A stretch of DNA of 64,000 nucleotides, from positions 2,480,001-2,544,000 of the forward strand of contig JAYJMM010000123.1 in assembly GCA_037349105.1 (NCBI GenBank), read 5' to 3'. The notes beneath the pieces are model-generated. The model was given only the letters and a program-made list of their open reading frames with translations. It was not told the origin of the DNA and did no database searches. This document shows, one piece after another, positions 14-42,974 of the stretch (positions within the stretch are counted from its first letter, which is position 1; each line of letters begins with the position of its first letter). This stretch comes from Limnomonas spitsbergensis (Eukaryota; Chlorophyta; Chlorophyceae; Chlamydomonadales). The position numbers and the translations under genes were made by a program.

Positions 14-3000
14 GTGGCACCCTGCTCACCCTCATCGACAGTGGCTTTCCCGACTCATCCCAGCCACTGCTTAAGCACAGCGTCAACGTCAGCGTCGCTG
101 GCGCCCCCTGCTCCATTGTCAGCTCCAATTACACCACGATGCAGTGCAGGACTCCGACCCAGGCTAGCTCAGCAGTGACGGCCGGCGTGATGTGGTCTGA
201 TGCCTCCCTCTTGTACCCGGTGAGCATGGGCGTAAAACCCTGAACCACAAGCCCTTCACCCTTTTATATACCCTACAACTTAAGCCCTTGACCCTAGAAA
301 CCCTAAACCACAGGCTCTCACCACTACAATTTAACCTTGAACCCTAAACCAAGAGCCCCGAACCCTGAAATGTAACCCTTTATGCCCAAACCCAAGGCCT
401 GGGATGCTCCTGAAGCCGTATATCGTCTTCCAAAACCTAGGGTTGTGCATTCTGTAAGGTCCCGTAAGGTTTACTTTACCCCGCTTTATCATTCCTGAAT
501 GCAGGGCATGCGCGGTGTGCTCCTGGAATCGTACAACGTCGCCTCGCCGACATTCTCCAGCCTGGCCGAGCTGGGCAGCGGCACATCAAGCAAAGGCAAT
601 AGCTGGACTCTCCAGGGTACTTGGCAGACCCCGCCCAAGATGCTCGGCAGTGACTCCTCGACGTCCTGCGATAAGTGAGAGGGGAATGGATGCGTGTGGC
701 CGATGGATAGAATTGTGTGCATGCTGCCTCCCCTGTTGCAGCGTCCCTCCCTCCCAGTGGTACGCGGGCTTATGTGGGTGAGGCAACGGGGTCTGCCAGG
801 TGCTTCCTTGGGAGAAGCTGGCAGACCACGGTACCCGACCCTACGCGTCCGGCAGCGACACGATCCGGGGCTGATGTGTGGAAGGGTAACGGACGTCGAT
901 CTGTTGTAGAGGCTACCGATGGGGTTGAGGCCTTGACCGGATTATGCCCAGCTGCTTAAACAGAGCAGGGTATACCGTGCCTGGCCCACGTAGTCGCGTT
1001 GGCTGTGACGTGGCTGACTGTAGCTGAAGCACATTGACGGTGGGGGCTGAGTTGAAGGGGAAGAAATGGAACTGTGTGCACAAGTGTGTCCTCTGCTTTG
1101 CTCTATGTCAAGATCCTAGTGGTTTTAAAAGAGCACCTGCCCGCCTCCCCGCCCTCCAGACAGAACCCTGCAGACTGCCCTCCCACCTCCCTGTCTACAT
1201 CCCTGCCCACCTCCCTGCCCACCTCCCAGCCCATCTCCCTGCCCACCTCCCTGCCCACCTGCCTTCCCACCTCCCAGCCCACCTCCCTGTCCACCTCCCT
1301 GCCCACCTCCCTGCCCACCTCCCTGCCCACCTCCCTGCCCACCTCCCTCCCACCTCCCTGTCTACATCCCTGCCCACCTCCCTGCCCACCTCCCAGCCCA
1401 TCTCCCTGCACACCTCCCTGCCCACCTGCCTTCCCACCTCCCAGCCCACCTCCCTGTCCACCTCCCTGCCCATGTCCCAGCCAACCTCCCAGCCTACCTC
1501 CCGTCCCACCTCCCTGTCCACCACCCTGCCCACCTCCCTGCCCACCTCCCTTTCCACCTCCCAGCCCACCTCCCTGCCCTCCTCCCCGCCCACCACCCTG
1601 CCCACCACCCTGTCCACCTCCCTGCCCACCTCCCTGCCCACCTCCCTCCCACCTCCCTGTCTACATCCCTGCCCACCTCCCAGCCCACCTCCCAGCCCAC
1701 CTCCCTGTCCACCTCCCTGCCCACCACCCTGCCCACCTCCCTGTCTACATCCCTGCCCACCTCCCTGCCCACATCCCTGCCCACATCCCTGCCCACCTCC
1801 CTGCCCATCTCCCTGCCCACCTCCCTGCCCACCTGCCTTCCCACCTCCCAGCCCACCTCCCTGTCCACCTCCCTGCCCATGTCCCAGCCCACCTCCCAGC
1901 CCACCTCCCGTCCCACCTCCCTGTCCACCACCCTGCCCACCTCCCTGCCCACCTCCCTGCCCACCTCCCAGCCCACCTCCCTGTCCACCTCCCTGCCCAC
2001 CACCCTGCCCACCTCCCTGACCACCACCCTGCCCACCTCCCTGCCCACCTCCCTGCCCACCACCCTGCCCACCTCCCTGCCCACCTCCCAGCCCACCTCC
2101 CAGCCCACCTCCCAGCCCACCTCCCTGTCCACCTCCCTGCCCACCACCCTGCCCACCTCCCTGCCCACCTCCCTGCCCACCTCCCTGCCCACATCCCTGC
2201 CCACATCCCTGCCCACCTCCCAGCCCTCCACCCTGCCCACCCACCTGCCCCCTCTCCCTTTACAGGTCTCGAGCGTTCTTCGGACCGCCTGTCAACGGCA
2301 GCTATGTCTTCTGGCTTGCTGCGGACGCCGTTGCTCAGTTATACGGTACCTGGAGCGCTGACGGAGGTGTGGCCTCGACCGTGCTACTGGCCACCATTAC
2401 GGCACCCACCGGCCTGCCTGACACCTGGGGTACAGCAGTGGGCTCCATGCCGGTGGCGCTGTCCGTCGGACAGCCCCTGCTGCTGGAGTTGAGGCACAGC
2501 AGCAACTCATCAACAACTGGCGGGTTTGTTCAGGTACGTTCATTTTTTATTTTTAGATAGGTTTGTTCAGGGTTTTGAGAGGGTTATGGAGAGATAAATA
2601 AAAGAACAAATACCGGCACAACATTTCTACATCTGTACTTGGATTACCTTCTGGCCTTCATCTCAGACCATAGGCTCAAAGCAAAACAACTTCAACCCTT
2701 AAAACCTCAACAACTGCAAGCTGTGTTTTCTATTCCCAGCTCCCGACCATGCTTCTTCAGTGTGGCAGACACGCAGCACATCCCCCCTGCTTCCTGTCTG
2801 CCTGCCTACCTGCTTGCCTGCTTACCTGCTTGCCTGCCTGCCTGCTTGCCTGCCTACCTGCTTGCCTGCTTACCTGCTTGCCTGCCTGCCTGCTTGCCTG
2901 CCTACCTGCTTGCACCCTTCTCCCTGTTTGCTGAAATTCTGCCTGCCAACCTGGCTGAAGATTGCCGTGTTGGTTCCCAACTCTCGGCCAAGCTTCTACA

Positions 3001-6000
3001 GCGAAGCCCACACGAAGGGCATCCCCCCTACTGCCTGCCTGCACCTACTTCACTCTTAAACCCACGCCATCATTATTAAACCCTAAAGACCGCAGCTCGC
3101 CGTTTCTGTTCCCAGCGACAGGCCGTGCTTCTTCAGCTTTGCCGACACGCAACACATCACCCTTAGCTACCTGCCTGCACTTACTTAACCCTATAAACTA
3201 CACCATGCATTATAAACCCCAACTGCCGCAGGCTGCCGTTTCTTTCCCCCCAAGGCCGGTCACGCTTCTTTAGAGTTGCTGACCCGCAGCTCATTCTCAC
3301 CCCTGTATGCCTGCACCTCCTGAACCTATAAAGTGCGTCGGGAATTCTACACCCTAACTGTCGCAGGTTGCCGTTGATGTTCCCAACTCCCGGCCACGCT
3401 TTCAGCGATGCGGACACGCAGCACATCCCCCCTGCTAGCACCTGCTTAACTCTAAAACCTACACCATCATTCCTCAACCCTAACGGCCGCAGGTCGCTGT
3501 TTCTGTTCCCAGCGACCGGCCGCGCTTCTTCAGCGTTGCCGACACGCAGCGCATCACGATCAAGGTGCAGCCCTCGGTCATGCAGCAGACCATCAGCAGC
3601 TGGCTGGAGACGCAGCGCTCGCAGGACACACCGTCACGCTGGCTGCGCTCTCATCTGCCGGCCAAGCGCTCCTGGGTAACCCACAGGTGAGGGGGGGCAT
3701 GAGGTTCAGATAGACATTATTTGCTAGTGGGGTGATGAGGGAGAGGGACACGCTGCCTCGCTGGCCACAGCCTTGTCGACTGGCCAGGCACTGCAGGAAA
3801 GTCCTTGGGTGAGAGGGTGGCATGGGGGCGAAATGGGGTGAAGTCAATTGTGAGGTGAGGTGAAGTGGTGAAGGGGCTCACCGTCAGCCTAGCCTCCGCT
3901 CGGGAGATCTGTGTGACTCATCATGCAGATGAAGATAATTGGGGCTTGCCGTCAGCCTGGCCTCTGGTCAGGTGCTCCATGTGACTCCTCATGCAAGCGA
4001 GAGGGTTGTGGCCAGGCAGGTGGGTACTGCCCAGTGGTGTGGTCGGAGGTGGGAAAAGACCAAAGGCCATCCCGAAGGGACAAAGAAAAGAAATTAGCAC
4101 ATTCAGGCGAGGTTATTTGATGGTGAGGTCAGGTTATGTGATGATTGGGGCCATAGCTCAGTGGCAGAGCGCCTGCTTTGCATGCAGGATGTCCAGGGTT
4201 CAATCCCCTGTGGCTCCATTTTCCTTTCCTCTCCTTGAACATTTGAAGTCAGTATGATGAAACTGACATTACACATGGAACACCGTAGTGTGATAGCACC
4301 CTCCGTATTTATCGTGTACGACATCCCCTCATTTCATGCTCCAATGTAAGTGCGGCTAGTCTGTGAGTACACTTTGACATCCTCAAATCCACGCCTTAAA
4401 CGGAGTTCCTTCCTTCCTTCCTAATTTACTTGTGACAATTAGCTTATGAAACGGAAGCCCCGGTAACCAACTATACCACTTGACTCAACACAACCCAGGT
4501 CGTCATCCAGCTCAGCCTAATGTCCTCAACTACCGCCGCCGTCACCGCAATATTACCAACGACGGCCTCTGAGGACGCCGCCGCGGCTGCGATCGCCGCA
4601 GCGATTGGCGCACCCGCCGGCGCGGTTTCTACGGAGCGCCGCGCTGCCACTGACGGCAGCTCCCTCACCTTTCAGCTGGGCGTGAACCTCACGCTGGCGC
4701 CCACGTTCTCCCTGACGGGCTCGTCGCTGGTGCTGCTGCCACCTGTAGCGCTGCCAGCCCCGGCCTGCCTGGCCGCCCCGGTGGCGCTCCAGCTGTCCCA
4801 GGTGAAGCATGTCCGCGGTGTGCCCCGACTTTTTGTCAAGCCAGTTCAACATCCCCTCCCCTCCTTTGTCCCATGCCGTGCCTCCGCCGCCGCTGATGAC
4901 GGCCCATCCTCCCTCCCTCCCTACCACCCCTCCCTCATCCCATTCTGTACCTCTGATGCTGCTGTAGTAGCATCCAACGTCCTACACCTGTTTTCCCGAA
5001 GCTCAAAACCCTACGCCCCCAACCCCATACCTAAAGCCCCAAACTCTGAACCTGAAACTTAAAACCCAAGTCCCGTATTGTACCCTAATGCCCCGATGCT
5101 CACCCGCCTGACCCTGGTTGGGCACAGCTGTCTCCCTCCTCCCTGCATCATACCCTGGGTGTGCATGCCTAGTTTTGGCGGCGTCATGCCGGCAGCACAT
5201 CCCCGCATGACGCCGTGTTGAAACACTTGATTGTTTATGATGATTGCGTCATAACAATATCAGCCGCATCACTAAATGACCCGCCATGACATGACCAATG
5301 CATTTTATCGGGGCACATAATTCCATGGCAGGAACGGTGTTTTTGCTCCGTTACTCCGCGCCGCCGACAGGTGCCTGGATCTTTATTTACCTTGTGGGTT
5401 ACAGTACATTCGGATTGCCTTCCCTCAATATTAACGTTGTTTAGGGCTGAGGGATTCGTTTCAACACTAAGTCTCGCTGTGTCAACGCCAGTTCCAGTCA
5501 TATGTACAGAGCTGTCATCCATATTTTGGTCCTAAGGAAGCATCAAATAAACAATTAATATGTACCCGAGGTAAGGCAATTTGAATTTATGATAAGGGTT
5601 TGGATACCGATGCTAGCCAGTGTAAAGCTGGGCGGCCAACAATGGGCGCATGAGGACCAATCAATGAGCGGCCTACGGCTGGTGGCTCATGCATCCGGTC
5701 ATGCAGCACCCCCCTCCCCGAGCCTTAGGGTGTGATGTAGCTGAATTGTATCTGAAACACCTTGCACAGAAAAGCAGTCCCAACCTTCTACCCGCCTCTT
5801 CCCCGCCCGCACCTCATCACAGATCCAGGCCGCCGTATCGATCTCGTCAGCCGCCGCCACCGCCCGCCCCGCAGCCGCAGCCGTACCCTCTGGCTTGTTG
5901 ACGATCACGCTGTCTGGTGGCAACGGCACCTCAGTCTCTTTCCCGGCCAACGCCAGCGCCTCCGTGGTCTCAGCTGCTATCAAGGTAGGACAGGCCTGGG

Positions 6001-9000
6001 GTGTGCGACGCAGGGATACCGTTTTAGGGTTCAGAGCTCAGGGTTTGGCTGGTTTTAGTGGCCATCAAGGTGAAGCATGTTTAGTGTTGAGAGTTAGGGT
6101 TTACCAGTACGGTTTGGTTGTTTTTTTGTGGCCTCTAATGTGAGGTATGTTTAGGGCACAGGGTTAAGGTGTCGGGTTTAGGGTGGAGTTGGTTGTGGCG
6201 ACAGACAAGGTGATGCTTGTTCAGACTGGCAGCATATGGGACATGCCATAAGTCCTACACTTAGACCCTAAACCCTGACCCTTGGCCCTGGACCCTGAAC
6301 CATGAACCCTGGACCCTGCATCCTGAACCGCCATCCGCACGCAGAACTTTATGAGCATCAAACCCAGCTCGTTGGTCGCTCTGACCAGGATGCCGTCCAC
6401 TCCCTAAACCTTGAACTCTTCACCCGCAGCCGCTTAAACGTAGGACCTATCCAATATCGAAACCAGGGGGGGTGGCAAGCAAGCGACGGATTTGGGGGGG
6501 GGGATATGTGGGGGAACACGTGGTTTGTACACCTGATCGAATCAATTTCTGTGGCTGTTGTGCCCGGGAGATACTCAACTGAGTCCGTTCCCCATGTTGT
6601 GATCCGCCCTCGACTCAGGATCTGACGAGCATTGACCCCGACTCAGTGGTCGCCCTGGTTGGGATGTACGGGGCATACACCGGCAGCCACTGGGCCGTCA
6701 CCTTCCCCAGCTCTCGCGGAAACAACGTGCCGGAAATAATTGCATCAGGTATGGGGGTTGTGTCCCAAGGTTTAAGGCTCAGGTTTTGAAGTACAAGTGT
6801 ACTGCTCCCATGGCATGATGGGTATAGTGTGCTGGTGCTTATTGCTTTCAGTATGGGCTTCAGGAATTTATCTGTTATTTCCCATCAGGTTTGGGGCTCG
6901 TGTTTTGAGCCTGTTATTCCTCACCGCCCACATGTGCTGGTGCTGGTCACATTTGGTGAGGGGTGAAGGGCTGAGGCCTCAGATTTTCGAGTTTATAATG
7001 TGATTTGGGGGTGGGATGGCAGGTCCCGCGCCCCCAGGGCGCAGGTTGTGAGGAGGAATTAGTTGGTTTAGGGGTTTATTTTGTCACCTCCGCTTGTCCC
7101 CGAATCAATGGTTTTATTTAGTGGCACACAAATTAACACTAATGACATGCCGCTCACGTTTCCTTGACCGGCTTGTGGAGTATGGCTCAGGTATCAGTTC
7201 TTTTGCACTAGAGGCTACTGGTGAAGGACTAGGGACGGGGTTGGAAGGTTAAGGAACGGCTCACTTGAGATGGGGACTCCTTGGGCTGGCAGATGGACTA
7301 TGCAGGAACTAGATAAGGGTCGGGCACGGCCGGAATTCAAATGATGATATGACGTTTGGCTAGTGACTGTCAGTTTGCCTGGCGAGGTGCTTAGTAAAGG
7401 CGTCCATGCAGTGGCAAGACTGTTAGGGCTTGGATCAGTGTTTCTTTTTTTGGCTGCAAGTCCACCTTCAGCAGGCCGCCCCACAGCCTAAAAAGGCCGG
7501 ATTGGGACAAAACTTAGGTTTGCCTAAGACTGGTGGTGAAAGCAGCATGGCTGGCCACAAATGGGCCCCCCAGCCATATGCCGGATTGTAGCTGACACGT
7601 AGCTGAGTCACAAGAAAATAAACGCTGGCTTGGATAGGGCTGGAATGTGAAAAATGTGCGTCGTATGACCGATGGTGGTCTGGGAGCTTACGATCATAAC
7701 TGCTCGTCCTGCTCGTGACGCAGCTTGACTCTGGTTGGGGTTGCACTTTGAGGCCCCTAGCTGGGTTCCTCTTTCGCAATTAATCTACATGTCAGCTACT
7801 GCCTGGTTGCTGGCCAGAGGCCTTGCTCGTGGCCAGCCTTGCTGCTTAGGCCACCATTCATTGGCAGCTCCAGGTTTGGTCGTAATTGGGCCTTTGCATG
7901 GCGGTCGCTGGGCAGCCTGACGAAGTTACCGAAAAAAGAAACACGTACGAGGGGTTCCAAAACCTCCACACCAACACCCCTTTACATACCGTATGCACTG
8001 ATGATGCAGCCGGCCGTAGGCCGTGTTGTTATAGCTGAATCATAGCTGAAGTACTTCACGTTAACACTGCCCTGCACCCCACAGCATCCTCCGTGGCCGC
8101 CCCCGCCATCACCTCTTACGTCGCATCCGCCACCATCGTGTCCCGCGCCTCTACTATCCTCTCGGGCAACGTGACGCTTGGCTTTGGAGCCGGATGCGAC
8201 ACGCTGGAATTCGACGTTGTTGCGGACACGCCGGCTAGCCTGGCCGCAAAGATCGCGGCGCTCCCCGGCATCCCGGTTCCGCCCGAGTCGGTCGACATCC
8301 GCCGCGGCGATGGCTCCGGCGGCATGCCGGCCGGGCAGCTGTACGTGACAGTCGTGTTCGATCGCAGGTAGGGGTACACGCCTGGGAGGATCGCAATATG
8401 CTTGCATGTGGACCACAAACACAGTTCCTCACAAAGCATGCAGTGGTGAGCAATCGAGCAAACGAATGACTACGTCAATTGCGTCATATATTGAGGTGCT
8501 GCATGGAAATGATTGTTGTTGCATGTTGCTTTGTGTGGAACGTCCCTGCTCTTGTTTTTTTTGCCCCATTTTCCTGCTGCCTGTGTTTTATTATCAGCTC
8601 GAACCCTGGGAACATGCAGCTGCTACGCATTGACGATGCCAGCGGGCTATCTGGGCCGCCGCTCGTGTCCGGTTCAGTGACCAAGCTGCTCAATGGCACC
8701 AAGGACATGTTCTTTGTCATTCCCACCGAGCTCTTGCAGGTAATAATGCTGGAATATAATACTGGAATATAATACTGGAATATAATACTGGAATATAATG
8801 CTGGAATATAATACTGGAATATAATACTGGAATATAATACTGGAATATAATACTGGAATATAATACTGGAATATAATACTGGAATATAATACTGGAACAT
8901 AATACTGGAATATAATACTGGAATATAATACTGGAATATAATGTTGGAACATAATACTGGAATATAATGTTGGAATATAATGCTGGAATATAATACTGGA

Positions 9001-12000
9001 ATATAATGCTGGAATATAATACTGGAATATAATGCTGGAATATAATGCTGGAATATAATACTGGAATATAATGCTGGAATATAATACTGGAATATAATAC
9101 TGGAATATAATGTTGGAATATAATACTGGAATATAATGTTGGAATATAATACTGGAATATAATACTGGAATGTAATACTGGAATATAATGCTGGAATATA
9201 ATACTGGAATACGGTATAATACTGGAATATAATGCTGGAATATAATACTGGAACTGGGTTGTGAAATTGTCAATCCCACACAACGCACACAGGAAATCAT
9301 CGTTTCCAGTAATCATGCAAAAAGACCAGAGAATGCCCAACCTCTGCGCAACCTCTGGATAAAACAAAATCGGGTTTCCCAACAAACACGATAAAACAAG
9401 ATTAATTTGTCATTCCCAACGAACACACACAATAAAACATGTTTTTCAGCATGGCCAGTCGATCATGTAGTGCAGGAATGAGAGCGGCAATGAAGTATGT
9501 GAGATCCCACCTTATGCCGTATAAAAGTTACCAATCCAGCTTGACGTCCTGTACCACTATTTATCCCTATCCTTCCTCCGGTTCCGTTATCCTATTTATT
9601 TATTTAACAACTACCGGTATTCATTTCAGCAAGGGAGAGCCAAGCATCCCCCCCTCACACATCTGCCCCCCATCCTTCCCCAGGTGCCCGTCTCAGTGCC
9701 GGACACCCTCGGCGTCATGGTCAACGGAGTCCCCACGACATGCGACGCTGCGGCCGCCTCTGACTGTGGCTTCTCCTTCGACGCTGCCCTGACCCCGGCC
9801 ATCACATCCGTGTCACCGTCCGCAGGTGGGAAGCAACCGCGTGTGTTCTCGTCCCCTTATGTTTCCTCACTCAGTCTCCTTCTGCCTCTTCTATGTTGTG
9901 TTTGTGGCTGGGGGAGCTTGCCCAAACTACCCCTCACACTACCTACCCACCTGCCACTTTCATATCATCACTAAACCCTTCACCTTAAACCCTCTCAGAC
10001 ATGCCAAGTGTAACTGAATCCTACATCTCTCTGACACACCAACCATCACTAAATCCTGATCCCTTATCCCGTACCCTATTGGACACACCAACCATCTCCC
10101 AACCCTACAACTTTTACCCTTAGCCTTCTCAGACATGCCAACCGTCGCTTAATCCTTTACCCTTATCCCTTACCCTATACGGCATGCGAACCGCTCCCTA
10201 ACCCTACAAATCTTACCCCCAAACGTCTTAGGCACGTCAACCGTCACACTGTCCATCTCTGGAAGCTTCCTCACCGCTTCAGTGGTCAACACCGCGGTCA
10301 CGGTCGGATCGACAGACTGTGCAGTGACAGCAGCTACTGCAACCAGCGTGAGATATCTGATGACGACTCTCTGATTTTGGTTTATTATTCTGAATCCCAG
10401 CGTCTGACGCTGACGCTTTTATCACTCCCACCACTCTTTGGTAGTCGGGTATGAATGGATGACCCTAGGGTGATGTTAAGATCTGCACCCTGTCCAGTGA
10501 CGGCAGTATCCTCTCGTACTCAGAGAAATCAGATTAATTTGTACAACACAGCACAAATGTATAAATACATGATATGTTTGTGTACCGCTTTGATATGCCT
10601 TCACCGGTGTGGCAAACATGTGTGTATATTGGGTTTTTGATCTTGCTTATGGTAGGACCAAAACGGTGCTGAATGCGAGCGGAGAGGTGATTCATTTTCT
10701 TCCAGGTGTTGAATGTTTGTGGTCTAGGGCTGGGCTGTGCGGAACACTAGAGAGGTGCCACCACCACCCATGGGGGGGGCGGGTATGACGGCTGAGCCAC
10801 ACAGCATGTCCCCATCACCTAGTAACCATGGACAGGTCTTGGGAGCGCTGAGCCACAGGACATGAAAGGGCTGAGCTACAGGATGTGGTTTCCTCACCTA
10901 CCGGCCACCCCACTCCCTTCTTCTTTCCTACACCTACACCTACACCTGCAAACCCTGAACCCTGAACCCTGAACCCTGAACCCTGAACCCTGAACCCTGA
11001 ACCCTGAACCCTGAACCCTGAACCCTGAACCCTGAACCCTGAACCCCAACCTTGCGATTTCAGGTCACGTGCATCCTGAGCAACACTGTTGGCGCGGGTC
11101 CCAATCGGGTTAACGTCAACATCAGCCCCCTTGGTTATGCCTCGGGCGCACCCTTGGCCTCGGTCCAGGTATGTGGGTGTCTGTGTGCCTGTGTGTGCAG
11201 GCACAGTTGGGGAAATCTGTTATGTCCCCTGGCAAGGCACTAAATGATTCTCACGCGCTTAATAGTGAAGACAATTGTGCATTCGTCCTTGCAGCAGCAA
11301 CTTAATGTTCTCCCCCCCTGCAATGTGGAAGTACCAGTATGAAATAATTCGGGGGGAAACAAGAAATTAGGTGTACGAGCGTCCGGTATGCTGTGGGCAC
11401 TCCTCAACTGTGCATGTGCACATGGCCCAGTGCCCCCTGATTTCGGTGCATGTACTTGTACATGTGTATGGTTGTATTTCCAAGTGGCCCCTCTTCACCC
11501 CAGCACTGCTGTGCAGGTGTTCATGTCTCAAGTCCTCAGGGGCTCTCCTCAACCTGCGTGCATGTGTGTTGCATTGTGAATGCGTGTGTGAATTTGTGTA
11601 TATGTGTGTAAGTGTGTACGGTACACGTGTATTAATGTGAGTGTTGAAATGTGTGTGAATGTGTGGGGAAGTGTTGGAATGTGTGTTAACATGTGCTGTC
11701 AAACAAACAACTCATTTTATGTGTGCAGGACTGCAGGTCCTTTACCTAAGACAAACTGAAACCCTAGGACTCTCTTGATTGTGTGCTGGCCCTCAACCCT
11801 CATCCAAGCCCTACACACCTACTCGTTTGTGTGCAGGTTCTCTCCATCTGTTCGGTGTCCCCGGCATCAGTGTCGGCCAGTGGAGGCACTCTACTTACCA
11901 TAAGCAGCACCGGCATAAGTATGGACAACTGCGCCAGGTGTGAGCTGGGGCTACTCATATTACTCATATTACTCATATTAGTCATATTACTCATATTTTC

Positions 12001-18062: not shown

Positions 18063-18089
18063 CATCATTAGCTGAGAAAATCTTGTCTA

Positions 18090-18720
18090 AGTCCATTTTA
18101 TTGGACGCTCTTCTGCTGAATCCCCTTTTGTCTGCACCGCCGCCCCTGCATTAACGTCATAGCCCCCCAAGTCCCCCCATTCGCTGAGTTACCTCTTCCT
18201 GAAGTCCCTTTTGCTTAACACCCTTTTGCTGCATTCCCTTTTGACTGTATAGTCTCCCCTGCATCAACGTCATAGCCCCCATGCCCACCTCATTCTCTAA
18301 GCTACCTCTTGCCAATGTCTTTTTCTCTGAACACTCTTTTGCTGAATTCAATTTTGACTGTGCAGTCCTCCATGCATTGATTCCATAGCCCCCACCCTCA
18401 TGTCATTCGCCAAGTTATATTTTGCTGATCACCCTTTGCTGAATTCCCTTTTGACTGCACAGCCTCCCCTGCCTTAATGGCATAGCCCCCATGCCTACCT
18501 CATTGGCCGAGCTTTCTTTTGCTGAATACCTTTTTCTAAATTCCCTTTTGTGACTGCATAGTCTCCTCTGCATTAATGGCATAGCCCCCACGCTTACCTC
18601 ATTCACCGAGTTATCTTTTGCTGAATACCTTTTGCTGAATTTCCTTTTGACTGCACATCCTCCCCTGTATTAATAAAGCTTATGCCTGCACAGCCTCATT
18701 TGCATGAACGTCCTGGCACC
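18090..18720. repeat. Tandem ~100-125-bp repeat after the last exon
   Basis: Six to seven diverged units carry TTTGCTGAATTCCCTTTTGA, then CTGCACAG-CCTCCCCTGC and a CATAGCCCCC block, then CCTCATT. Each unit has an acceptor-like TGCACAG/CCTC resembling the junction of the last exon at 18011-18024. Confidence 0.75.
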
Positions 18721-20584: not shown

Positions 20585-23500
20585 TTACAACTCATCCTTC
20601 CTTCCAAACCAGCCCATGACCATGGCCTCGATCTCTTGGTTGCTCATGCCCCGATCCTTCATCACGCGGAACGCCTGCAGGCCACACACCAGGATGATGG
20701 CCAGGAGGATGATGACGCCTTGCATGTGCCTGCGGGGGAAGGGTCAGCACGGTCAGAGGGCTCACAGCGATCGAGGTATGGAAGGCCCAGGGCCTGGCAA
20801 CCTCGGGAGTTCTACAAGTGAGCGGGAGTCGGGCATACTGCACATTCATTTATTTCTCAAACCAGAAAATTTGCGTAATCTCAGGCAGAGGGAGATGCTC
20901 CTGGTTGCTCTATACGTCTCCACCCCGTCCCCATCCTCCTCATTCAACCGCCGTGCCACAGTGCCTTGCTGCCGTGCCGTGCCTTCCTGCCGTGCGGTGC
21001 CACAGTGCCGTGCCTTGCTGCCGTGCGGTGCCGCAGCACCCAGGTCCCCTGCTTACCCCCACAACCTTACCCCCCCCTTCATCCCCTGCCCAGTAGCCAC
21101 CCTCCACACACACCTGGCCCACTCCGGCACCTTCCTCCCCTCGCGCTGATACGCCGCCCTGACGCTGGCCTTGCTGATGTCCGTGATGCGGGCGCTCGCG
21201 TCTGCCGACACGGACACCACGTGCTTGCAGTTGTGAGAGAAGGCGATGCCTGTGGCAAACACCATGTGCGCATTGAGCAGCTTACGTACGAGCGTGGTGC
21301 TGGCATTGGCCGTCGCAACCTGCAGGTGGTGGGGGGAGGGGGCCGTGGGTAGTGGAGGGGGGGCACAGAGGGAGGGCACAGAGGGGGGGCACAGAGGGAG
21401 GGCAGCATCAGGGGTGTGGTCGTAAGTGTAGATCTCAAGTAATTCAAGGTACATGTGACATCAGATTGCGCTGGGGCAGGAGAGCGGTGGGTAAAAGTCT
21501 GCGTCGGTAGCAGAAGCATGCGGGGAGGGAGGATGACGGAAAGTTGGGGTGGAAAAACGGAGGGACAAGTCGAAAATCTGAGGAAACAATCCAGGCGCAG
21601 CTTCATCAGCACAAGAAAGGGCGAGCGTGTGGAGGGCAGCATGGGGGGGCAGGTAGGTGTCAGGGCATGAGGGGCTCAAGCTCGCATGCTCCCCACCCAA
21701 ATCCCACAAGTCAAGCCCCACCCCACGCATATCTCTAGGTGGGGCCTGGACCATATCCCCAGGGTCCCGCCCCGTGCCGCCCTCATCCCCAGGATCTAAT
21801 CCCTGCCCCTTAGAAGCCCCAGGGCCCCGCCCCGCCAGAATTCAAAGGGTTTATAACCCTGCCTCAACCAAATTCCCAGGGTTTATCCCCCCCCCCAAAA
21901 TACTATTGTAGCCCAGGGCCCAGGCTCCAGCCCCACCCGAATTCCTAGGGTTCAACCCCAGCCCCGACCACATCCCCAGGTTCCAGCCTTTGCCCCACTT
22001 CAACCCCAGGGTCCACCCCTTGCTCCATTGACCAGTATTTCTCCACTACTCCGCTCCATTGACCCCCCGGTATCTCACCACTACTCCGCCCATTGACCCC
22101 CCGGTATCTCACCACTACTCCGCCCATTGACGTGCCGCAGGCGAGCAGCTCCCCGTCTCTGCTGACATCAAAGCAGGTGCAAGGGTGGTCCGACACCTTT
22201 TTGCAGGCGACCAACGTCGGCAGGCCGGCGGCGGGCGACGACGGTTCCGGAGCCGTGGTGGCGGCGTCGGCGGCCGCGCCTGAAGCAGCCGGGCGCTGCA
22301 AGGCTGCGATTCCTCCCCACCGCGCGATGTGCCCGCCCGACTGTGGCGTGTTGAGCAGCGTCAGGAGGTCGCCGGTGCCGTCCCGCGCAAAACGCAGCTT
22401 GGAGATCTGGACCCGCTCCGTGCCTGAGTCATGTGGCAGGGTCTAAGGGTTCAGGGTGCCACAGGTCACAGGGGAGATAGGGAGGCGTGCGGGGATAATA
22501 GGGACAACATTGTAACAAAATATAAATGAGATATTTACCAGTAATGGTGAAACAATATGACTTCCTCCCCTTGCCAGGAAAGGAACTCCTCAGGCACCGC
22601 CATAGTGCCCCCCCGATCATGATGCGACCCCGTAACAACACATTTGCATTTCCAATTTTCCACATGCATAGATTTCTTTCGCGCACCTGACGGCAGCCGC
22701 TGAACTGACGTCTTGCCCTCGCTGCTGAGGAGGATAGTGCGCTCCAACTTCTGCTTCACTGCAAACGGTAGAATTACGGACGTGAAAGATCGTGCAGGCA
22801 GACAGCCAAGAGTCCAGTAACCAGTAGCTAAATGATGTGCCGCACTTCAGTTCAAGCTCACGACAGTTTGGGTTCTACATTTCAGCCAAACCCTATCCCG
22901 CCTGCCAAAGCTTCCATTTCCTAGGCACTCATTCTGCCCCTTTGCCCCCCCTATCTCTCTTTCCGTCCCTATGCCCCCGCTCTCACACTTTCCCGGCTCC
23001 ATCCGGAACATCTGGCGGTTTCTCTCCCAGTCCCAGACCTCGCACGTCCCGTTGTCCAAAGTCACCGCTATCAAGTGCGAGCCCCGGCTGGATGCATGAG
23101 CCGCCTGCGCGCCTCCCGCTGCCGCTGCCGCCGCGTCCGCCCCACTCAGGAGGCTGAAGTCAATGTCTCTGATGGCGTCTGCAAGCTTCTTGTCACCGCT
23201 GCGCATGGCCAGCCGACGGGAACAAAACATGTTATCTTATTGAGATGGTACTGCTTGTCAGTAGGGTTTAGGGACAGCGCAAAGAGCAAGTTTACAATCA
23301 CAAAAATATGAAGGCCTCTGCACAGTGGCCTAGACCCTTGACCTTAGCCCTAAACGACACAGGACCAGATGGGGACTGTCACGAGTCAGAAGAAACAAAA
23401 CCGCCCCGAAGGTTTCCGATTAAAGATTTGAATACCCTAAACCCTGTCATTGACTCATGGCAGCCAACACCGACCTGAGGGGGCTTAGGCTTCAGTGTTA

Positions 23501-24993
23501 AGGGTAAACAAAGCCACACTTTCCTAACTCATGACAGGCAGCACCGACCTGAGGCTGAACTTGGGCTTCATGGAGGGCCACTCATACACATGCAGCTCGC
23601 CGCTGTCAAACCCAATGGCAAGGTGGCTGCTGCCCGGCCTGAAGCTGAAGCACTTGACCTCGCCCTTGACCTCTGACAACCGCTCCTGCAGATCTCCTGC
23701 GACCGGTGGGGTGCATGGCACAAAGCCAACGGGTGGCGAAGTGGCATTTGCATGGGGCGGGGAAAATAATGCCAGTGGTTGAAGTAAGATGTGGATACCA
23801 ATGTTGAGTGAAAGTTTGAATAGATGATGATACCTCCTACAAAAGTTCCTTTGATTTACGCAGGCAGGTTCTTTGCGCTGGCCATGCAAATGGCTCCCCA
23901 TGCATGACCCAGCACACATGCAACCTGCAAACGCACCGGTCATCTCTGTGAATTTTGGCACCTTGCCCCGTGCGTCCAAGTCCAGCCTCTTAATGCCCCC
24001 TTGTCCCATGGCAAACACGATAGACTTGTTGTTCGGAGTGACGGCAAGTCTGTGCATGCAGGACAGCATGGATTTTTATTAAGGATTGTGATATTTGATG
24101 CATGGCCAAACACGATGGACTTGCTGTTTGGAGTGATGGCCACTATGCGCATGTGGGGCAGCATGTGCCTGCACTCTCAAATCAAGCGAATGAATACAGC
24201 TGTTCCGGGTGTTGTTCAGCAAGCTTCAGCTTAGGCTGCTTGAGATGGGGCACAGGAGAGGTTAAGGGGTTGTACCTACCCACCTCACAATTAAGGCACA
24301 ATATGGCACAATTAGCCCAGGGCACACCAAGCCCATTGGCAGCATATGCCTCCCTGGTCAGGTCATGAGAGGGCAGGCTGATAGGGCCAGATCTTATGCT
24401 GCCGTGACCAACGCTAGAAAGAGGTTGCTGACATATTTAATTTCTGATTTTTTTTTGCACAAGCGATCAGCCAATAGGTACATTGGTTGTCCCGGGTCCA
24501 ACTTGAGGGTCCCATGTAGGTCATGTCCCATGGGTCCGACGTGCAGGAGGTGCCCCATGCAGGTCATGTCCCTGGCTTCAGCTCTAACAGGTGGGGTCTC
24601 TGCTTTGAAATGACGCATCATGGAAACGTTGCCATGACCGACCTCATGGGACAATTGTCTCCGAAATGGAACTCCGCAACTTGATCGGTCAGCTGACCGC
24701 TGATGACGTTCGCGCAGACGAGCCTGCGAAATTATTTGCCATGCACTTTCATTAAAGCGACCAAGATTGCATGTCATCGAAGAGCATGCCATGCCGGTCG
24801 CTTATAACTTCTGCACTGTGGGGACCTGCAGGGCGGGCATGACGAGCTGCCCAGGTGTACGTGAGCCGAACACCTGCCTGTTCTTGATGCCCATCCCTCC
24901 ACCCCCGCTGATGTAGATCGTGTCGCCCTCGGGCCAGCTAAGCCCATAGATCGGCATCCCATATTTGAAAGACCTGCCTTGGACCTTGGCCAT
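20585..24993 (-). CDS. SEC12: SEC12/PREB-type guanine nucleotide exchange factor for SAR1
   Basis: Exons (minus strand): 24993-24878, 24723-24643, 24049-23937, 23696-23549, 23198-22987, 22758-22687, 22423-22113, 21319-21114, 20729-20585. They join in one frame to 467 residues. SEC12 is an ER membrane protein that loads GTP on SAR1 to start COPII budding. Visible here: the N-terminal glycine loop SGGGGMGIKN (residues 29-38), which in yeast Sec12 is the potassium-binding K loop; the GDNCPMRLAVTPN block; WD-like blades (FDVSRDGELLACGTS, FSHNCKHVVSVSADASARI); one membrane helix (about 424-440); and a short tail ending in KDEL, fitting a type II protein with a lumenal C-terminus. The first intron appears to use a GC donor (AACAG|GCAGGT), because the GT three codons on breaks the frame. 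It is divergent from the PGP synthase gene. Confidence 0.93.
22035..22125 (-). repeat. Tandem copies of the exon-end/donor junction of SEC12 exon 7
   Basis: The exon end and donor (TCAATGGGCGGAGTAGTG then GTGAGATACC on the minus strand) are followed by two further ~32-bp copies. The first keeps the GTGAGA donor; the last is mutated. Confidence 0.85.
24102..24166 (-). pseudogene. Decayed copy of the start of SEC12 exon 3
   Basis: About 98 bp upstream of the true exon, the minus strand reads MRIVAITPNSKSIVFG. The real exon reads RLAVTPNNKSIVFA. The copy soon loses the frame, and the true exon alone keeps the phase. Confidence 0.8.
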
Positions 24994-25227
24994 TTGAACG
25001 AGCGGCAGCAGCGGCTAAATGTAGTGATGTTTACGAGTAATGCCGTCTGCCTGTCTGCCTGTCTGTCGATTGTCTCGACACCTTCGACATTTCCGACCCT
25101 GGCATCGACCCTGGGTTTTTGAAAGGCCCCAAACCTTGTGACACGAGGGTGGGCGGGCATTCCGCCTTATCACAGCCAAGGTTGGGCCAGTTGCGCAGGC
25201 AACTCACATCAGGCATCCTACTGCACG
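24994..25227. promoter_or_regulatory. Probable bidirectional promoter between SEC12 and PGP synthase
   Basis: Only 234 bp separate the two start codons, which point away from each other. The interval holds a short CTGTCTGCCTGTC repeat. I see no clear TATA box on either strand. Confidence 0.6.
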
Positions 25228-28200
25228 ATGGCCACGCGAACCTTCATAAACGCGCTGCGTCCCTCCCTCCTGGCGAGCAAGACGCGCTTTGCGTCCACGT
25301 CACTGCAACATCTCCAGCTGCACCACGTCAATGGCCTGCACATCAAGCATGCTCTCCAAGACGCTTCTCTAGGAGGATCCGAAGGGCATGGATCTCCAAG
25401 CAGCAGCAGCGGTGGCGCTCCGGTAGGTGTGTCTGTGCGCGCCATGCGCCATGCGATTGGCAGACACGGCACATTGGCCTAATAGCCCGCAGTGCATGAT
25501 CCATGATACCATAATCCCCTTTATTCATGCATGGCATTGTCCAGATTTTTCTCACACTCGCACTGGGTGTCGGTCTAACTGCAGCGGGTAGCGCGACACC
25601 GCACTGGTTTGTTTACCTTTCTCTGTACCAAGTGCACCCTGGTTTCAACCGCCCAGTGGACCAGTCTGAAAAGGCTACTGGGCGGTTGCATTAATACTGT
25701 ACTGTTGGATGCATGGCAGCATTCTGGGTTTGTGCCCCAATCCATGAGATGAGCGTCTAAGAGCAGCTGTGAATGCGACACCAACGTCTCAGCAGTCAAA
25801 ACTGCAGGCGGGCACTCAGCTCTCCACCCTCGTGCACCCAATGCTGGGCCCACTGAGGGTTCATCGTCATTTTAAGTTCAATGCATATAACCCCAATCAG
25901 TTTTCGAAAGGTCGGGCAGTACAAACATAGAAAACATAAGTTTTGTTCAGCAGGGGATCCTCTGCTCGACCCCCAACAGATTCACAACTAAAGGAAACAC
26001 ATCTGTGTCCAGCTACGGGTAAGCCATGTAATTCAGGGGCATGCAGCTCTAGATGTCGATGATGCACAGTGGGGACGTAGGCCCGGATCTCTCGTCTATA
26101 AGAGCTTTGCGTGCTCCTTTTGTTGTGCACCCTGTAACACTCGTATGCGTGTTGATTGTCTTGATGTCGGGGTTTGTGTGTGTTTCCCCATCCCCCATGC
26201 AGGCAGTCACAGCACCCACCATGCCCATCCCTCCCTCCCCAGCATCTTATCGCGATACTCGCCATGCTGTGCATGATTTACTTGAAGTGTGTTGAAGTGT
26301 GTTGTAGTGTGTTGATGTCTGCTGCCTTTTCCCCTGACAGGTCATCACGATACCCACCATGCCGTACATTAAGTACTTGAAGTGTGTAGAAGAGTGTTGA
26401 AGTGTGTTGATGTGCGCTGCCTATTCTTCCCAACAGGTCATCACGATACCCACCATGCTCACCCTAGCGCGTGTTGCCGCTATACCCGTCCTCGTCGCCG
26501 GTAGGTCCTGGGTCGCTGGATGTATAGCTGCCCACCCAAACCCTAAACCCTAAACCCTCATCAATCTCTGCAAGGCCCTCTTTAACCCTCTTAACCCCTG
26601 TGAGCCCCTCTAAACCCTCATCAATCTCTGCAAGGCCCTCTTTAACCCTCTTAACCCCAGTAAGCCCCTCTTAACCCTCATCAATCTCTGCAAGGCCCTC
26701 TTTAACCCTCTTAACCCCTGTAAGCCCCTCTAAACCCTCATCAATCTCTGCAAGGCCCTCTTTAACCCTCTTAACCCCTGTAAGCCCCTCTTAACCCTCA
26801 TCAACCTCTGCAAGGCCCTCTTTAACCCTCTTAATCCCTGTAAGCCCCTCTAAACCCTCATCAACCTCTGTAAGGCCCTCTTTAACCCTCTTAACCCCTG
26901 TAAGCCCCTCTGAACCCTTATCAATCTCTGCAAGGCCCTCTTTAACCTTCCTAACCCCAGTAAGCCCCTCTAAACCCTCATCAATCTCTGCAAGGCCCTC
27001 TTTAACCCTCTTTACCCCTGTAAGCCCCTCTTAACCCTCATCAATCTCTGCAAGGCCCTCTATAACCCTCTTAACCCCAGTAAGCCCCTCTTAACCCTCA
27101 TCAATCTCTGCAAGGCCCTCTTTAACCCTCTTAACCCCTGTAAGCCCCTCTTAACCCTCATCAACCTCTGCAATACCCTCTTCACCCTTTCAACCCCTGT
27201 AAGCCCCTCTGAACCCCTGTAAGCCCTTCTAAGCCCCTCTTGGACATTGGAATACTACAAACTGTATTGCTCATACAAGAGTGACCATGGGGTAAAGTAT
27301 GGTTAAGAGGGTTCTTCTTAAAAAGAGGAGAAATCTCTATCAGCCCCTTCAAGTCCCGCCATGCCCTTTTTACCCTTCTCAACCCCTCTAAGCCCCTCAT
27401 AACTCCTCTACCTCTTAAGCCCCTTTAGGCCCCTTATCACCCCACAGCAGCTTGAGAAAAACTGCGCCGCAGCAGCAGCCTCAAGTTTTTATTTCAAACT
27501 TGCTGGCAGCTCTCCTGAGACCTCAACAATTTCTTCGCCCTGCCCCCTGCGCCAGTATCCCCCCCCGGCTTTAAGTCCACCTTTGGCAGGCCGCCCCGCG
27601 GCCATGGAAGGCTCGGTTGGGACCAAACCTCGGCCAGCCTTCGACTGGTGGCCAAAGCAGCATGGCTGGGCACAGACGGGGCCCGAGGCCCGGGTGTAGC
27701 TGACATGAAGCTGACTGATGAAAAAAGAAACACTGCCGTGCGCCCGGCTTCAAGACCACCATGAGCACAGCAACATGCAGCAGGCAGATTTTGCCCTCTG
27801 TCGTCTGCTGATTTTGCCTTCCTATGTAAATACGCACTTTGTTTGCTGATCTGCGCTTGCAGGCTCGTGCTGCGATCCCCCGGCCGGCATGTGCACCGGC
27901 AAAACCTAACTACCCCTCTGTGTATAAACATCTGATTTCTGACCTGTGCCCTCAGGCTGGTGCCAAACGTCCCTCGGCCGGCGCGCAGAACATCTCTATA
28001 AATAACAAAAAATCCTGATACCACAACTGTGTCTGATAGCTCGCTTGTCAATCTGCCCCCCCCCCCTGCAGGCTGGTACTGGACATCTTCCTGGTCAACC
28101 CCATGCTGTACAACACTTTTCCTGGCAGCAGCATTCACAGACTGGCTGGATGGCTACCTTGCACGGAAAATGGTGTGCTGAGCGGCTAGTTTGAAGGGCT

Positions 28201-31200
28201 GAATAAGGCTGTGTGTGTGTTTTAGGTTACGGAAAACGGCGCGGGCTGGAGCCCTAGGGAGCATCACCCACCTAACAAGGTGTGGTTTTGCAGCTGAATC
28301 CTCCTACAAATAGGGGACCCATTTGCGTTGTCTCTTTGAGCCTGTTGGACAGCCTGTTGGATCGTGGCTTCCCTTGATATTATTTCGTGATTTAGGCGCA
28401 CTTCAATCTTATGTTGGAGCACTTGAAGCAGGGTGGGTTGTGCACGCATGCGTTGAAACTACTGGGTCTACTACTGCATGCCTCCCGTAGATGTTCCCAG
28501 TTGCCCACCCACCTGGCTGCCACAGACTGGCGGCACTGATTGTTTTAATCAATACCTGAAGGAGTTTATTATTAGATGAAGCAATTGTCGTCCGGAGCAA
28601 CGGGGGAAATACGCGTTCACGTTCACAGGGATCAAGGCTTACATGGATTAGGGTTTAAAGGGACAATGGCACAGGGCCTTTCAGGGGAAAGGGCCTACAG
28701 GTTTAGGGCTCTTGACAGCCGTGTCAGCAGTGCCTTGGCCATATTCGATCCGGTCTGACAGCAGAAGCGAAAACGAACTATGCAAGCATAGGCTGCACAG
28801 CTGTTTTGCGTTGCCTAGGTTGTTGCTGTTTTTGTCGCCTGTCCATATTGCATGCCGCTGCTGCTGCCCTTGCTATTGTATGACTAGGGGCACCGGGAGA
28901 GTGAAGAGCTGTGAGGAATAATGTCTGTCAGTTCCATAGACTGCCCATCTGGCAGCCCCCCACCCCTGAAACCGGCCCCCAAACAGGCCCCAGGCAGGCG
29001 CCAGGCACGCCCTGGGGAGAAACCCGGGCAGCCCCTAGACTGGCCTTACGCATCTCCCCCAGGAAGGCCTCGAGATACCCTCACCACCTGCCTTGACACA
29101 CACTCTTTTCCACGTTGGATATGATCCTGGGCCAAGGTCACTCACCCACGCCTCTCCCCCTTGACAACAGCAGAGACTGAATGATGTGTTCAACGCATTT
29201 CTGGAGACCAGAATAGCCCCCTGCACCCCTTCCTCCTGCCTCTGTGCTGCACTGCTGTTTTCTACATTTGGCGTTTTGCTGGAGACCAAGGCGCCCCCTG
29301 CGCTCCTCTCTCCCCCTTTGAAATGCATTAATCTTGTCTTCATTCTGTGCTTTCTGAATAGCACATCCTACTTCCTTCGACCCTTTCCCCACCCCCCTCC
29401 TCAGTGCAGAAACTTTGCTCTGGATTCGGCCCCTCCCAGGACAATGAAACTGCTCCTCGGCCCCTCCTCTTCCACCACCACCCCAGTCTTCACAATTCAG
29501 AAATTGTGCTCTGCATTTGGCAATTTCTTGAACACCAAAACTGCCCTCCCCCCCCCTTCCTCCACCACCCCTCCCTGTGTGATTCAGAAACTGTAATCTG
29601 CATTCGGCACCCTCCCAGGACACCAAAACTGCCCTCCTCCCCCCTTCCTCCACCACCTCAACCTGTGCATTTCAGAAACTGTTCTCTACATTCAGCACCC
29701 TCCCAGAACACCAAAACTGCCCTCCCCCCCCCCTTCCTCCACCACCCCTCCCTGTGTGATTCAGAAACTGTAATCTGCATTCAGCACCCTCCCAGAACAC
29801 CAAAACTGCCCTCCCCCCCCCCTTCCTCCACCACCTCAACCTGTGTGATTCAGAAACTGTACTCTGCATTTGGGGCCTTCCTGGATCCGGTGGCGGACAA
29901 GCTCATGGTGGCGGCAGTGCTGGTGTTGCTGTGCACGGAGCCCATCACTGTGGGGCCGCTTGCAGGCAACACATGGCTGATGCCTTGCGCGACGCTGGGT
30001 GAGCATTTGGGGGGAAGGGGAGACCTTGAATTCATGGTGGGGGCAGAGGTGGTGCTGCTGCGCATGGATGCCATCTTTATAGGACCGCTTGGGGGCTACA
30101 GCTGCAACACCAGTGGTTATTTTAGCCGGTACTGGGTATAACTCGTAGTGAGAACGGTGTCAAATAATTAGTGGTTTGTGAGTCGAGCGCAGTCACTTGT
30201 TACCGGAAATATCCCGAAAACAAGCAAAATGTTGTGAGAATCAAGGAATTCTTCCGTCTTCAGCGCTTCTTGGGGGGGTCAGTGCCGTACATCGGTGGCC
30301 ATAATCACTAGAAGAATCACGGGTCAACACATGGCTGATGCCTTACGCGGCGCCTGGGTTGGGGGGTGATAGGGGAAAGCAGATCTTGAATTGATGGTGG
30401 CGGCAATACTGGTGGTGTTGGGTAGGTAAGCCGTGTTAATGAGACTGCTTGGGGGCAGCACGTGCCTGATGCCTATCACCATGCTGGTTGAGGACGTTAC
30501 ACAGACCCTGTAGGCATGGCGCATGGTATGGCTTGATTTGTGTATGCTCAGGCCAGCCCTCCAGTCTCGCCCGATCAATGCAGCAATGAAGCAAGCTACC
30601 TCGGACACCTGGTCCATTTTCGCCCTCCGTCCTGGCTCCAGAACCAGTGCCCAAACCCTGCATGCTGGACCCTGAACCTTGCTTGCTTGCTCCTGTACCC
30701 TATCCGATGATCCTGGGGCTTTAGATTCTCTTGGCTGGCACTTCTGAACCCCTAGTCTTTAAACCCACTGTTGCTGTCGTCAGCGGGTGGCCCAACACAT
30801 ACGGCCATGAGTCCTTGCGCAGCTTTCCATGAAATCCACCGGAACTCTACAAAGTTCCAGTTATGCAGTTTAATATCGGTTCTCGGGTTATATTTGATTA
30901 ATAATATTAAATATTGGTAGCAAAGCGAATTGGAAGTCAATTGTGTTAGTATTACTGACCTACCGGTGCCGTACTGATGACCATTAAATGTATTACAATG
31001 CATCATGCATAACTGGATGTAAAAGTATTCAAATAATGACTGCTTTGCAGCTATCATCGGACGTGAGATCACCATGTCGGCGCTGCGGGAGTGGGCGGCG
31101 ACCATGGGGCCTGCCGCCAGGGGGGCTGTAGCGGTCAGCTCGTGGGGGAAGTGGAAGACGGCATGCCAGGTGGGGACCAGTAGGTAGATAGGCTGTAGCT

Positions 31201-42930: not shown

Positions 42931-42974
42931 AAGTGGCGATTCCCCTCACGACATGCGAAAAATTGAAGCCTATG

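Follow-up and report, generated by a model that had tools for sequence, protein, structure and literature searches.

Tandem repeats that carry an exon edge together with its splice site have already been described in amphioxus, where such 'mirages' were reported for Adh3, with units of 10-72 bp, and for globin genes, with units of 150-160 bp (PMC3087553). Among green algae, the survey of repeats in Chlamydomonas reinhardtii and Volvox carteri found introns to be the gene region richest in repeats, with repeats becoming more numerous towards the intron ends (PMC3887541), and intron definition has been deduced for Volvox and Chlamydomonas from the shortness of their introns (PMC4378016). Analysis of a 64-kb window (the whole stretch of DNA analyzed here) from the genome of a green alga revealed what appears to resemble the amphioxus phenomenon, with repeat units that hold both the intron and the exon side of a splice junction. 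Between one and six copies per edge of the exon edge and its splice site were found in the adjoining introns of the fibrocystin-like (FIB), SEC12-like, PGP-synthase (PGPS) and peroxidase genes; the deaminase gene showed the same kind of copies, but weaker.

For 11 window edges chosen as promising, a 60-base junction query (24 intron and 36 exon bases) was compared with the remainder of the adjoining intron and with 200 dinucleotide shuffles each, and nine of the 11 exceeded all 200 shuffles. These nine were the acceptors at FIB 3493, FIB 6619, PGPS 26437, PGPS 29854 and SEC12 24049 and donors at PGPS 29998, SEC12 22113, deaminase 47592 and peroxidase 59165; in the same test, PGPS acceptor 28072 and deaminase acceptor 47494 had no significant copies. 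The proposal of the sequence-only reading that four genes (fibrocystin-like, SEC12, PGP synthase and deaminase) contain exon-edge copies in the adjoining intron was thus confirmed, more weakly for the deaminase. At six of the passing edges the nearest copy lies 34-126 bp away, but the spacings of 274 bp at FIB 6619 and 359 bp at PGPS 29998 are too wide for the tight head-to-tail arrays of its description.

Gene models were built from the sequence, and the joined proteins were checked with Pfam. Matches were obtained for PGP synthase (PF01066, E 2e-29), adenosine deaminase (PF00962, E 4e-85), UDP-glucose dehydrogenase (PF03721, E 7e-61) and peroxidase (PF00141, E 1e-28), and for the SEC12 candidate (WD40), while the FIB protein gave a sub-threshold TIG match alone (E 0.0042); 'SEC12' and 'fibrocystin-like' are labels taken from the sequence-only reading. 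A search with the PGPS protein returned mainly green-algal and plant relatives, the best being Chlamydomonas eustigma (63% over 93%).

FIB intron 3 (forward strand) contains five decayed copies of the acceptor and exon start (2703-2755, 2953-2996, 3072-3131, 3215-3268 and 3344-3401, spanning 2703-3401) at lags of 126-773, with a score of 42 against a shuffle maximum of 17 and an intact AG in four of the five. The exon at 3493-3686, supported by its open frame and splice sites, has its initial ~63 bases in common with the array (the 63-bp exon part of the unit), and a single weak copy of acceptor edge 6619 lies 274 bp off at 6324-6379 (39/54 identical). In PGPS, also on the forward strand, three copies of the exon 2 acceptor edge occupy intron 1 (26194-26232, 26235-26268 and 26321-26362, spanning 26194-26362; best score 32, shuffle maximum 16) and share the initial ~22 bases of exon 2 (26437-26500), part of the joined protein that matches PF01066. 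Intron 3 holds six copies of the exon 4 acceptor edge with an 89-bp unit (29239-29792), five of which span the junction and retain AG, and the initial ~28 bases of exon 4 (KLYSAFGAFLDPVADK..., 29854-29998) are common to this array. Two donor-side copies of the end of exon 4 are located in intron 4 (30325-30376 and 30454-30492, spanning 30325-30492; score 30, shuffle maximum 18), the nearer one 359 bp off. Seeming copies upstream of exon 3 (28072-28172), first counted by eye, were rejected because their score of 11 was not significant against a shuffle mean of 13.2.

On the reverse strand, SEC12 intron 6 contains two tandem 34-bp copies of a donor edge (22056-22088 and 22025-22054, spanning 22025-22088; 33/33 and 27/30 identical), a period also reported by TRF. 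Of these tandem donors, edge 22113 of the exon at 22113-22423, an exon supported by its frame and by the joined WD40 protein, lies closest to the exon. SEC12 intron 1 has one copy of acceptor edge 24049 (24109-24165), in which the decoy reads AT, not AG. The forward-strand deaminase and peroxidase genes each carry one donor-side copy, the former in intron 2 from edge 47592 (47648-47680; 32-bp repeat found by TRF, 30/33 identical, beating 200 shuffles) and the latter in intron 5 from edge 59165 (59224-59282; 45/54 identical), in the gene matching PF00141.

A systematic test of all 85 curated window edges (an 86th, the donor of SEC12 intron 1, was uncertain and left out) gave 12 positives, six acceptors and six donors; at two of these, FIB 8739 and deaminase 51001, the copies scarcely enter the exon. 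Deaminase donor 47592 fell just under the margin of this test (score 19, shuffle maximum 17), and exon-only 40-mers were positive at seven of the 85 edges.

Across exon edges sampled from the 260-Mb genome, junction 60-mers identified a junction-spanning copy at 49 of 431 edges (431 and not 433, as two edges with targets under 60 bases were omitted) and at none of 431 reverse-complement controls. At 44 of the 49, a copy extends at least 8 bases into the exon, and at five the copies scarcely enter it. The positives are spread over 25 of 63 sampled loci, as expected from the earlier suggestion that the phenomenon is not bound to one gene or family. Both boundary types are affected alike, with 26 of 211 donors and 23 of 220 acceptors positive (Fisher p 0.55) and equal numbers in the window, at odds with the acceptor-side majority initially perceived. 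At least two copies were found at 31 positive edges and a single copy at 18; the distance between edge and nearest copy is 30-135 bp for 37 of the 49 and reaches 440 bp at most, and identity among 148 copies ranges from 0.68 to 1.00 (median 0.87). Among Pfam-supported edges outside the window, defined as no more than 30 nt from the end of a Pfam match, 15 of 86 were positive, compared with none for reverse complements and 0/86 for exon interiors.

Exon sequence considered by itself gave a similar result. When the score had to exceed the highest of 100 shuffles by more than 2, exon-edge 40-mers were copied in the adjoining intron at 30 of 433 edges, compared with 0/433 reverse complements, 2/392 exon-interior 40-mers and 0/346 opposite exon ends; with a margin of 0, the corresponding counts were 43, 4, 3 and 2. 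All except two of these 30 edges are among the 49 junction-test positives, and the 30 cluster by gene (permutation p 0.015). The sample leans to kinase and kinesin genes: domain loci supplied 307 of the 433 edges, random blocks 41 and the window 85. The random blocks contributed three positives, two of which are one formamidase donor edge counted twice in a duplicated gene. Most edges came from a purpose-written gene finder, trained from curated genes and domain-search loci, which exactly reproduced 20 of the 28 exons in its four training genes. A satellite-like block (C41:1000001) was left out, as were, outside the window, introns shorter than 80 bases and predicted exons with a score below 8, a length below 40 bases or more than 30% tandem repeat.

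The sequence-only reading attributed the copies to a process acting at exon boundaries, a view that would fail if exon edges held no excess of copies over random positions in introns. Edges were not richer: by the same score criterion, one-sided copies were found for 365 of 1574 intron-internal windows (23%) but 30 of 433 exon edges (7%). In profiles restricted to edges flanked by sufficiently long introns and by exons of 60 bases or more, 19-22 of 80 mid-intron windows were duplicated, compared with 13/80 for the initial 30 exon bases and 3/80 for the next 30. For introns of at least 850 bp, the frequency was 24-28% at −420 to −210, 15% in the last 30 intron bases, 16% in the first 30 exon bases, 4% in the next 30 and 1% at 60-90, and a 24-nt profile showed no peak at the junction, with copy frequency declining from mid-intron to edge. 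TRF arrays with a period of at least 20 likewise cover 17.4% of intron bases, 9.8% of other bases and 2.4% of exon bases. When short-period arrays were masked, the initial 30 exon bases (15/77) were copied roughly as often as the intron at large and more often than the last 30 intron bases (9/77), and a mild boundary effect may therefore exist.

The extents of the copies, measured by anchored extension, show that their exon part is not better conserved than their intron part (identity 0.85 versus 0.84 at acceptors and 0.87 versus 0.91 at donors). Exon copies were measured at 21 acceptor edges, and at 15 of them a copy also extends to the intron side, always with at least 35 intron bases in the unit; at 18 of 22 donor edges the intron bases in the unit go down to 12 and 15; these unit sizes omit the six acceptor and four donor edges at which the intron side was not reached or anchoring failed. 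Exon copies at four acceptor and three donor edges scarcely reach the intron side, a pattern that a unit simply spanning the junction leaves unexplained.

Decoy splice sites are left behind, as had been anticipated: among junction-spanning copies, 41 of 64 on the acceptor side keep AG and 32 of 50 on the donor side keep GT. In 27 of these 41 and 23 of these 32 decoys, the score is no more than 1 log unit below that of the real site. Acceptor AG was kept at approximately the neutral rate (p 0.77), whereas donor GT was kept less than neutral decay expects (0.54 versus 0.75 per edge over 23 edges, p 0.026), suggesting that donor duplication may not be neutral. The further proposal of alternative exon starts appears unlikely, since decoys with an intact dinucleotide would produce an in-frame, stop-free insertion at one of 31 acceptors and none of 11 donors. 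Because only one of these 42 decoys keeps the frame open, and considering homology and domain matches, we infer that the exon-proximal sites are those used.

A pair of formamidase genes (PF03069) that are 99.8% identical differs by 164 bp, or two units of 82 bp, at an acceptor array, and the remaining two indels in ~7.2 kb are single bases. In addition, an exon-start variant of one copy is present in the intron of the other. The last exons are absent from the member of the pair that carries the two additional units, and one single-base indel falls inside a predicted exon, suggesting that one copy may be a pseudogene. Shifting exon borders, also envisaged by the sequence-only reading, find their one support in this pair, in which one copy is truncated.

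We consider it likely that the copies are intronic minisatellite-like repeats that cross splice junctions and do not stem from a process aimed at exon boundaries. Short tandem duplications would arise all over introns and turn over, probably through slippage or unequal exchange, and a duplicated unit spanning an exon edge would place a new copy of that edge and its splice site inside the intron. As long as the spliceosome stays with the exon-proximal site, the mRNA would be unchanged, so that edge-spanning duplications would survive and degenerate in the same way as the rest of the intron; selection would eliminate duplications deeper in the exon. The functional exon edge would then be the terminal, selected unit, and exon-proximal choice, by exon definition or a proximity rule, would presumably be the reason for tolerance.

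Exon edges would also be copied into introns by a mutational process that targets exon boundaries, one linked, for instance, to splicing or R-loops. Such a process could account for recurrence at 49 of 431 edges, for the excess of exon starts over intron ends in the masked profile and for the clustering by gene of the exon-only positives, but mid-intron windows are duplicated equally or more and the profile lacks a junction peak, making such targeting improbable. Still less probable is that the copies are functional and selected as alternative splice sites, exon starts or splicing regulators; decoy strength and the near-neutral retention of acceptor AG speak for function, against which stand the one in-frame, stop-free insertion among 42 decoys, an exon part conserved no better than the intron part, and the loss of donor GT faster than neutral.

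The arrays might also record the birth of introns from tandemly duplicated exon segments (Rogers model), for which precedents are a potato intron derived from duplication across an intron-exon boundary (PMC4974935) and the proposal, in the amphioxus report, of intron gain from such repeats (PMC3087553). However, the repeats fill just part of the 360-1700 bp introns in the window, and their units contain intron as well as exon sequence, indicating that the intron already existed, and we regard this origin as very improbable, below either preceding alternative. The lowest probability goes to artefact, through errors of assembly or gene modelling or through a transposon or introner family dispersed in the genome. 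The gene models are predictions, five of the 49 positives scarcely enter the exon and several are weak; yet the copies are diverged, unlike falsely duplicated reads, Pfam-supported edges are positive at 15 of 86, reverse complements gave nothing, and the two arrays searched against the genome with very common words skipped, those of FIB and PGPS intron 3, had no match beyond their own place.

Extending the minisatellite reading, we tentatively suggest, with rather less than even confidence in the whole, that about one in ten exon edges (44/431 of those sampled) is the terminal unit of a minisatellite that is turning over, that splice-site and exon-start DNA is repeatedly replaced by array exchange with the protein unchanged, and that near-equal sites are resolved exon-proximally on both sides by exon definition or a proximity rule, despite the intron definition deduced for Volvox and Chlamydomonas (PMC4378016). 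The arrays provide dozens of natural contests in which real and decoy sites are closely matched in strength and lie at known distances; RNA data on them could reveal how these algae choose their splice sites. They also carry a warning for annotation, as gene finders in such genomes can choose decoy junctions.

Comparison with published systems revealed both likenesses and differences. The repeat-density account for C. reinhardtii and V. carteri does not appear to describe exon-crossing repeats or splice-site copies, and while repeats rise towards intron ends in those algae, the frequency of same-intron copies falls towards the edge in this one (PMC3887541). As in the alga, the duplication reported for the potato intron includes splice signals and crosses an intron-exon boundary, whereas extra copies in the alga lengthen an existing intron, with no new intron shown (PMC4974935). 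Minisatellites in human segmental duplications likewise change in unit number between recent paralogues, some at an exon-intron boundary, and are said to elongate exons and introns and form novel introns, in contrast to the alga, where no protein change is evident (PMC2812944). Amphioxus, as described for its mirages, and the alga are alike in having tandem units of exon edge plus splice site at both 5' and 3' boundaries, with AG or GT kept in many but not all copies; copy number varies between haplotypes in amphioxus and differs, in the alga, between two gene copies of which one is truncated (PMC3087553). They differ in that amphioxus belongs to another kingdom and has RT-PCR support for regular splicing, whereas the alga was analyzed at the DNA level, and in that amphioxus was reported gene by gene, whereas in the alga the phenomenon was measured over 431 edges and is not boundary-specific (PMC3087553). 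A phenomenon known from single amphioxus genes is thus extended to a green alga, with a rate.

Comparison of 60-base queries spanning 11 selected junctions of the window with the remainder of their own introns revealed that nine outscored all 200 dinucleotide shuffles, confirming the observation of the sequence-only reading that exon edges (exon ends at an acceptor or donor, named here by window coordinate) are copied in the adjacent introns. The clearest cases with this query were, in the fibrocystin-like gene, edge 3493 (five copies); in the PGP synthase gene, 29854 (six copies, unit 89 bp), 26437 (three copies) and donor 29998 (two copies); and in the SEC12-like gene, donor 22113 (two copies, unit 34 bp) and acceptor 24049 (one copy). 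PGP synthase 28072 and deaminase 47494 showed no copies beyond shuffle level in their own introns with the same query and 200 shuffles, and deaminase donor 47592 passed this test and fell narrowly below the margin of the systematic junction 60-mer test. Exon-only 40-mers, which contain no intron bases, matched at 9 of 86 window edges versus 1 of 73 exon interiors with 40 shuffles, and at 7 of 85 versus 1 of 72 with 100 shuffles.

The window belongs to a genome of 260.2 Mb in 124 contigs, taken here to be that of a green alga on account of its PGP synthase, and six of the window's genes were curated through reading frame and splice sites, yielding 43 introns. Pfam supported PGP synthase (whose closest relatives in a protein search are from chlorophyte algae), deaminase, UDP-glucose dehydrogenase and a peroxidase; the SEC12 candidate matched as a WD40 protein, and the fibrocystin-like protein gave only a sub-threshold TIG match. 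Introns of the fibrocystin-like gene also hold a tRNA-Ala (TGC) gene (4146-4219, + strand) and a minisatellite with a 12-bp unit repeated about 90 times (1178-2259), which occupies most of intron 2. An array with a 13-bp unit, in about 39 copies (8743-9253), starts a few bases from donor 8739 of this gene; it is nearly intron-only, yet was counted as an edge match in the junction 60-mer test. Elsewhere in the window, two distinct arrays (41067-41271 and 42244-42931) are built from very similar 31-bp minisatellite motifs, and a large near-perfect inverted repeat (61585-63321; arms of 345, 215 and 150 nt, 98-99% complementary) adjoins a putative non-LTR reverse transcriptase sequence, recognized by eye.

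Recurrence was assessed in 336,705 bases (59 merged pieces). Besides the window, these took in loci for kinases, kinesins and UDP-glucose dehydrogenase, together with four blocks of 20 kb placed at fixed coordinates, one of which (C41:1000001-1020000, sampled loci L040-L041) was satellite-like, with a 39-base "exon" called at many repeated places, and is absent from all counts. Exons outside the window were predicted by a gene finder written for this analysis. When a 40-mer copy in the adjacent intron had to score more than 2 above the highest of 100 shuffles, exon-only queries matched at 30 of 433 edges, versus 0/433 reverse complements, 2/392 exon interiors and 0/346 opposite exon ends; outside the window the corresponding values were 23/348 edges, no reverse complements and 1/320 interiors. 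Junction 60-mers matched at 49 of 431 edges (reverse complements, 0/431), on both sides of exons (23/220 acceptors, 26/211 donors) and in the window (12/85), elsewhere (37/346) and in the random blocks (3/41). At 44 of these 49 edges a copy extends across 8 or more exon bases, and 18 of the 49 have a single copy only. As a guard against gene-finder error, we considered only exons outside the window with an edge no more than 30 nt from where a Pfam match ends; of 86 such edges, 15 matched, versus no reverse complements and, in the exon-only test, 0/86 exon interiors. One kinesin gene (contig C97) carries copies at either end of one intron, and again at the acceptor that follows. With at least one matched edge at 25 of 63 loci, the copies are not confined to the window.

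The sequence-only reading further proposed a process acting at exon boundaries, recurring across unrelated genes. One-sided copies were found for 365 of 1574 intron-internal windows, drawn from those of 278 distinct introns that have at least 240 bases, versus 30 of the 433 exon edges. A paired profile covered introns of 850 bp or longer, with 80 edges and targets of 400 nt; matches numbered 19-22/80 at −420 to −210, 17/80 at −60 to −30 and 12/80 at −30 to 0 on the intron side, and 13/80 at 0 to 30, 3/80 at 30 to 60 and 1/76 at 60 to 90 on the exon side. For introns of 530 bp or longer (156 edges), the profile gave 35/156 at −250 to −220, 22 at −30 to 0, 21 at 0 to 30, 6 at 30 to 60 and 1/147 at 60 to 90. 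These counts indicate that repeats are at least as frequent in mid-intron, pass the splice junction unbroken and disappear 30-60 bases inside the exon; exon-edge duplication is thus not boundary-specific. The sole result leaning towards a boundary process is a small rise, from 9/77 at −30 to 0 to 15/77 at 0 to 30, when short-period arrays are masked, which leaves the shape of the profile in place. Arrays with a period of at least 20 occupy 17.4% of intron, 2.4% of exon and 9.8% of other bases.

The copies themselves do not look maintained as coding sequence, given the similar identity of their exon and intron parts (0.85 and 0.84 at acceptors, 0.87 and 0.91 at donors). The exon part of a unit is mostly 23-63 bp (10th to 90th percentile). 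Acceptor units hold at least 35 intron bases among the 15 acceptor edges listed, and donor units as few as 12 and 15 among the 18 donor edges listed, a list that omits six acceptor and four donor edges with copies short of the intron side or not anchorable. For these few cases, the difference would fit a requirement that a tolerated unit bring along a branch point and a pyrimidine tract at acceptors, but just a 5' splice site at donors.

Among decoys, the splice-site look-alikes within junction-spanning copies, AG was retained in 41 of 64 acceptors (45.7 expected from identity) and GT in 32 of 50 donors (39.4 expected). Calculated per edge, acceptor decoys showed no departure from neutral AG retention (18 edges, p 0.77), and donor decoys showed a GT deficit (23 edges, p 0.026). 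Many intact decoys scored no more than one log unit below the real site (27/41 acceptors; 23/32 donors, 12 of the scored donor decoys stemming from one array). Use of a decoy with an intact dinucleotide would give an in-frame, stop-free insertion at 1 of 31 acceptors and 0 of 11 donors, and would thus nearly always break the protein, suggesting that the exon-proximal site is chosen. Intron definition is the mode that passages of a Volvox splicing study (PMC4378016) ascribe to the short introns of Volvox and Chlamydomonas. Under that mode the inner sites, which are the decoys, would be preferred; the pattern seen here would instead point to exon definition or a proximity rule.

Turnover of an array is suggested by a formamidase gene (PF03069, E 2.4e-17) duplicated in tandem with 99.8% identity (C4:1000001-1020000, sampled loci L036-L037). 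The overlap of about 7.2 kb contains three indels, two of a single base and one of 164 bp. The latter corresponds precisely to two units of 82 bp and lies at the acceptor array of the exon that begins with ARDWLM. One gene copy has GCT as the first codon of this exon; the other has GCC there but holds a GCT-starting unit in its intronic array. Therefore the exon edge itself seems to have joined the exchange, in whichever direction. The gene copy with more units is the second, which lacks the last exons (3' end truncated), and one single-base indel lies within a predicted exon. One of the two may therefore be a pseudogene, which weakens the case for turnover.

Similar structures are known from the globin and Adh3 genes of amphioxus, where passages of one report (PMC3087553) describe "mirages", in which intron/exon boundaries at both ends are duplicated in minisatellite-like fashion; their length differs between haplotypes, and splicing is regular by RT-PCR. 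The algal copies are of the same kind. No prior description of exon-edge copies in algae was found among the listed titles and abstract openings of open-licence PubMed Central papers. Passages of a survey of plant and green-algal tandem repeats (PMC3887541) describe algal introns as repeat-dense, increasingly so towards intron ends; unlike the copies found here, the repeats in those passages are not mentioned as entering exons. In sum, the phenomenon is known from amphioxus, and the present analysis adds an algal case with a measurement over many genes, which does not support boundary targeting.
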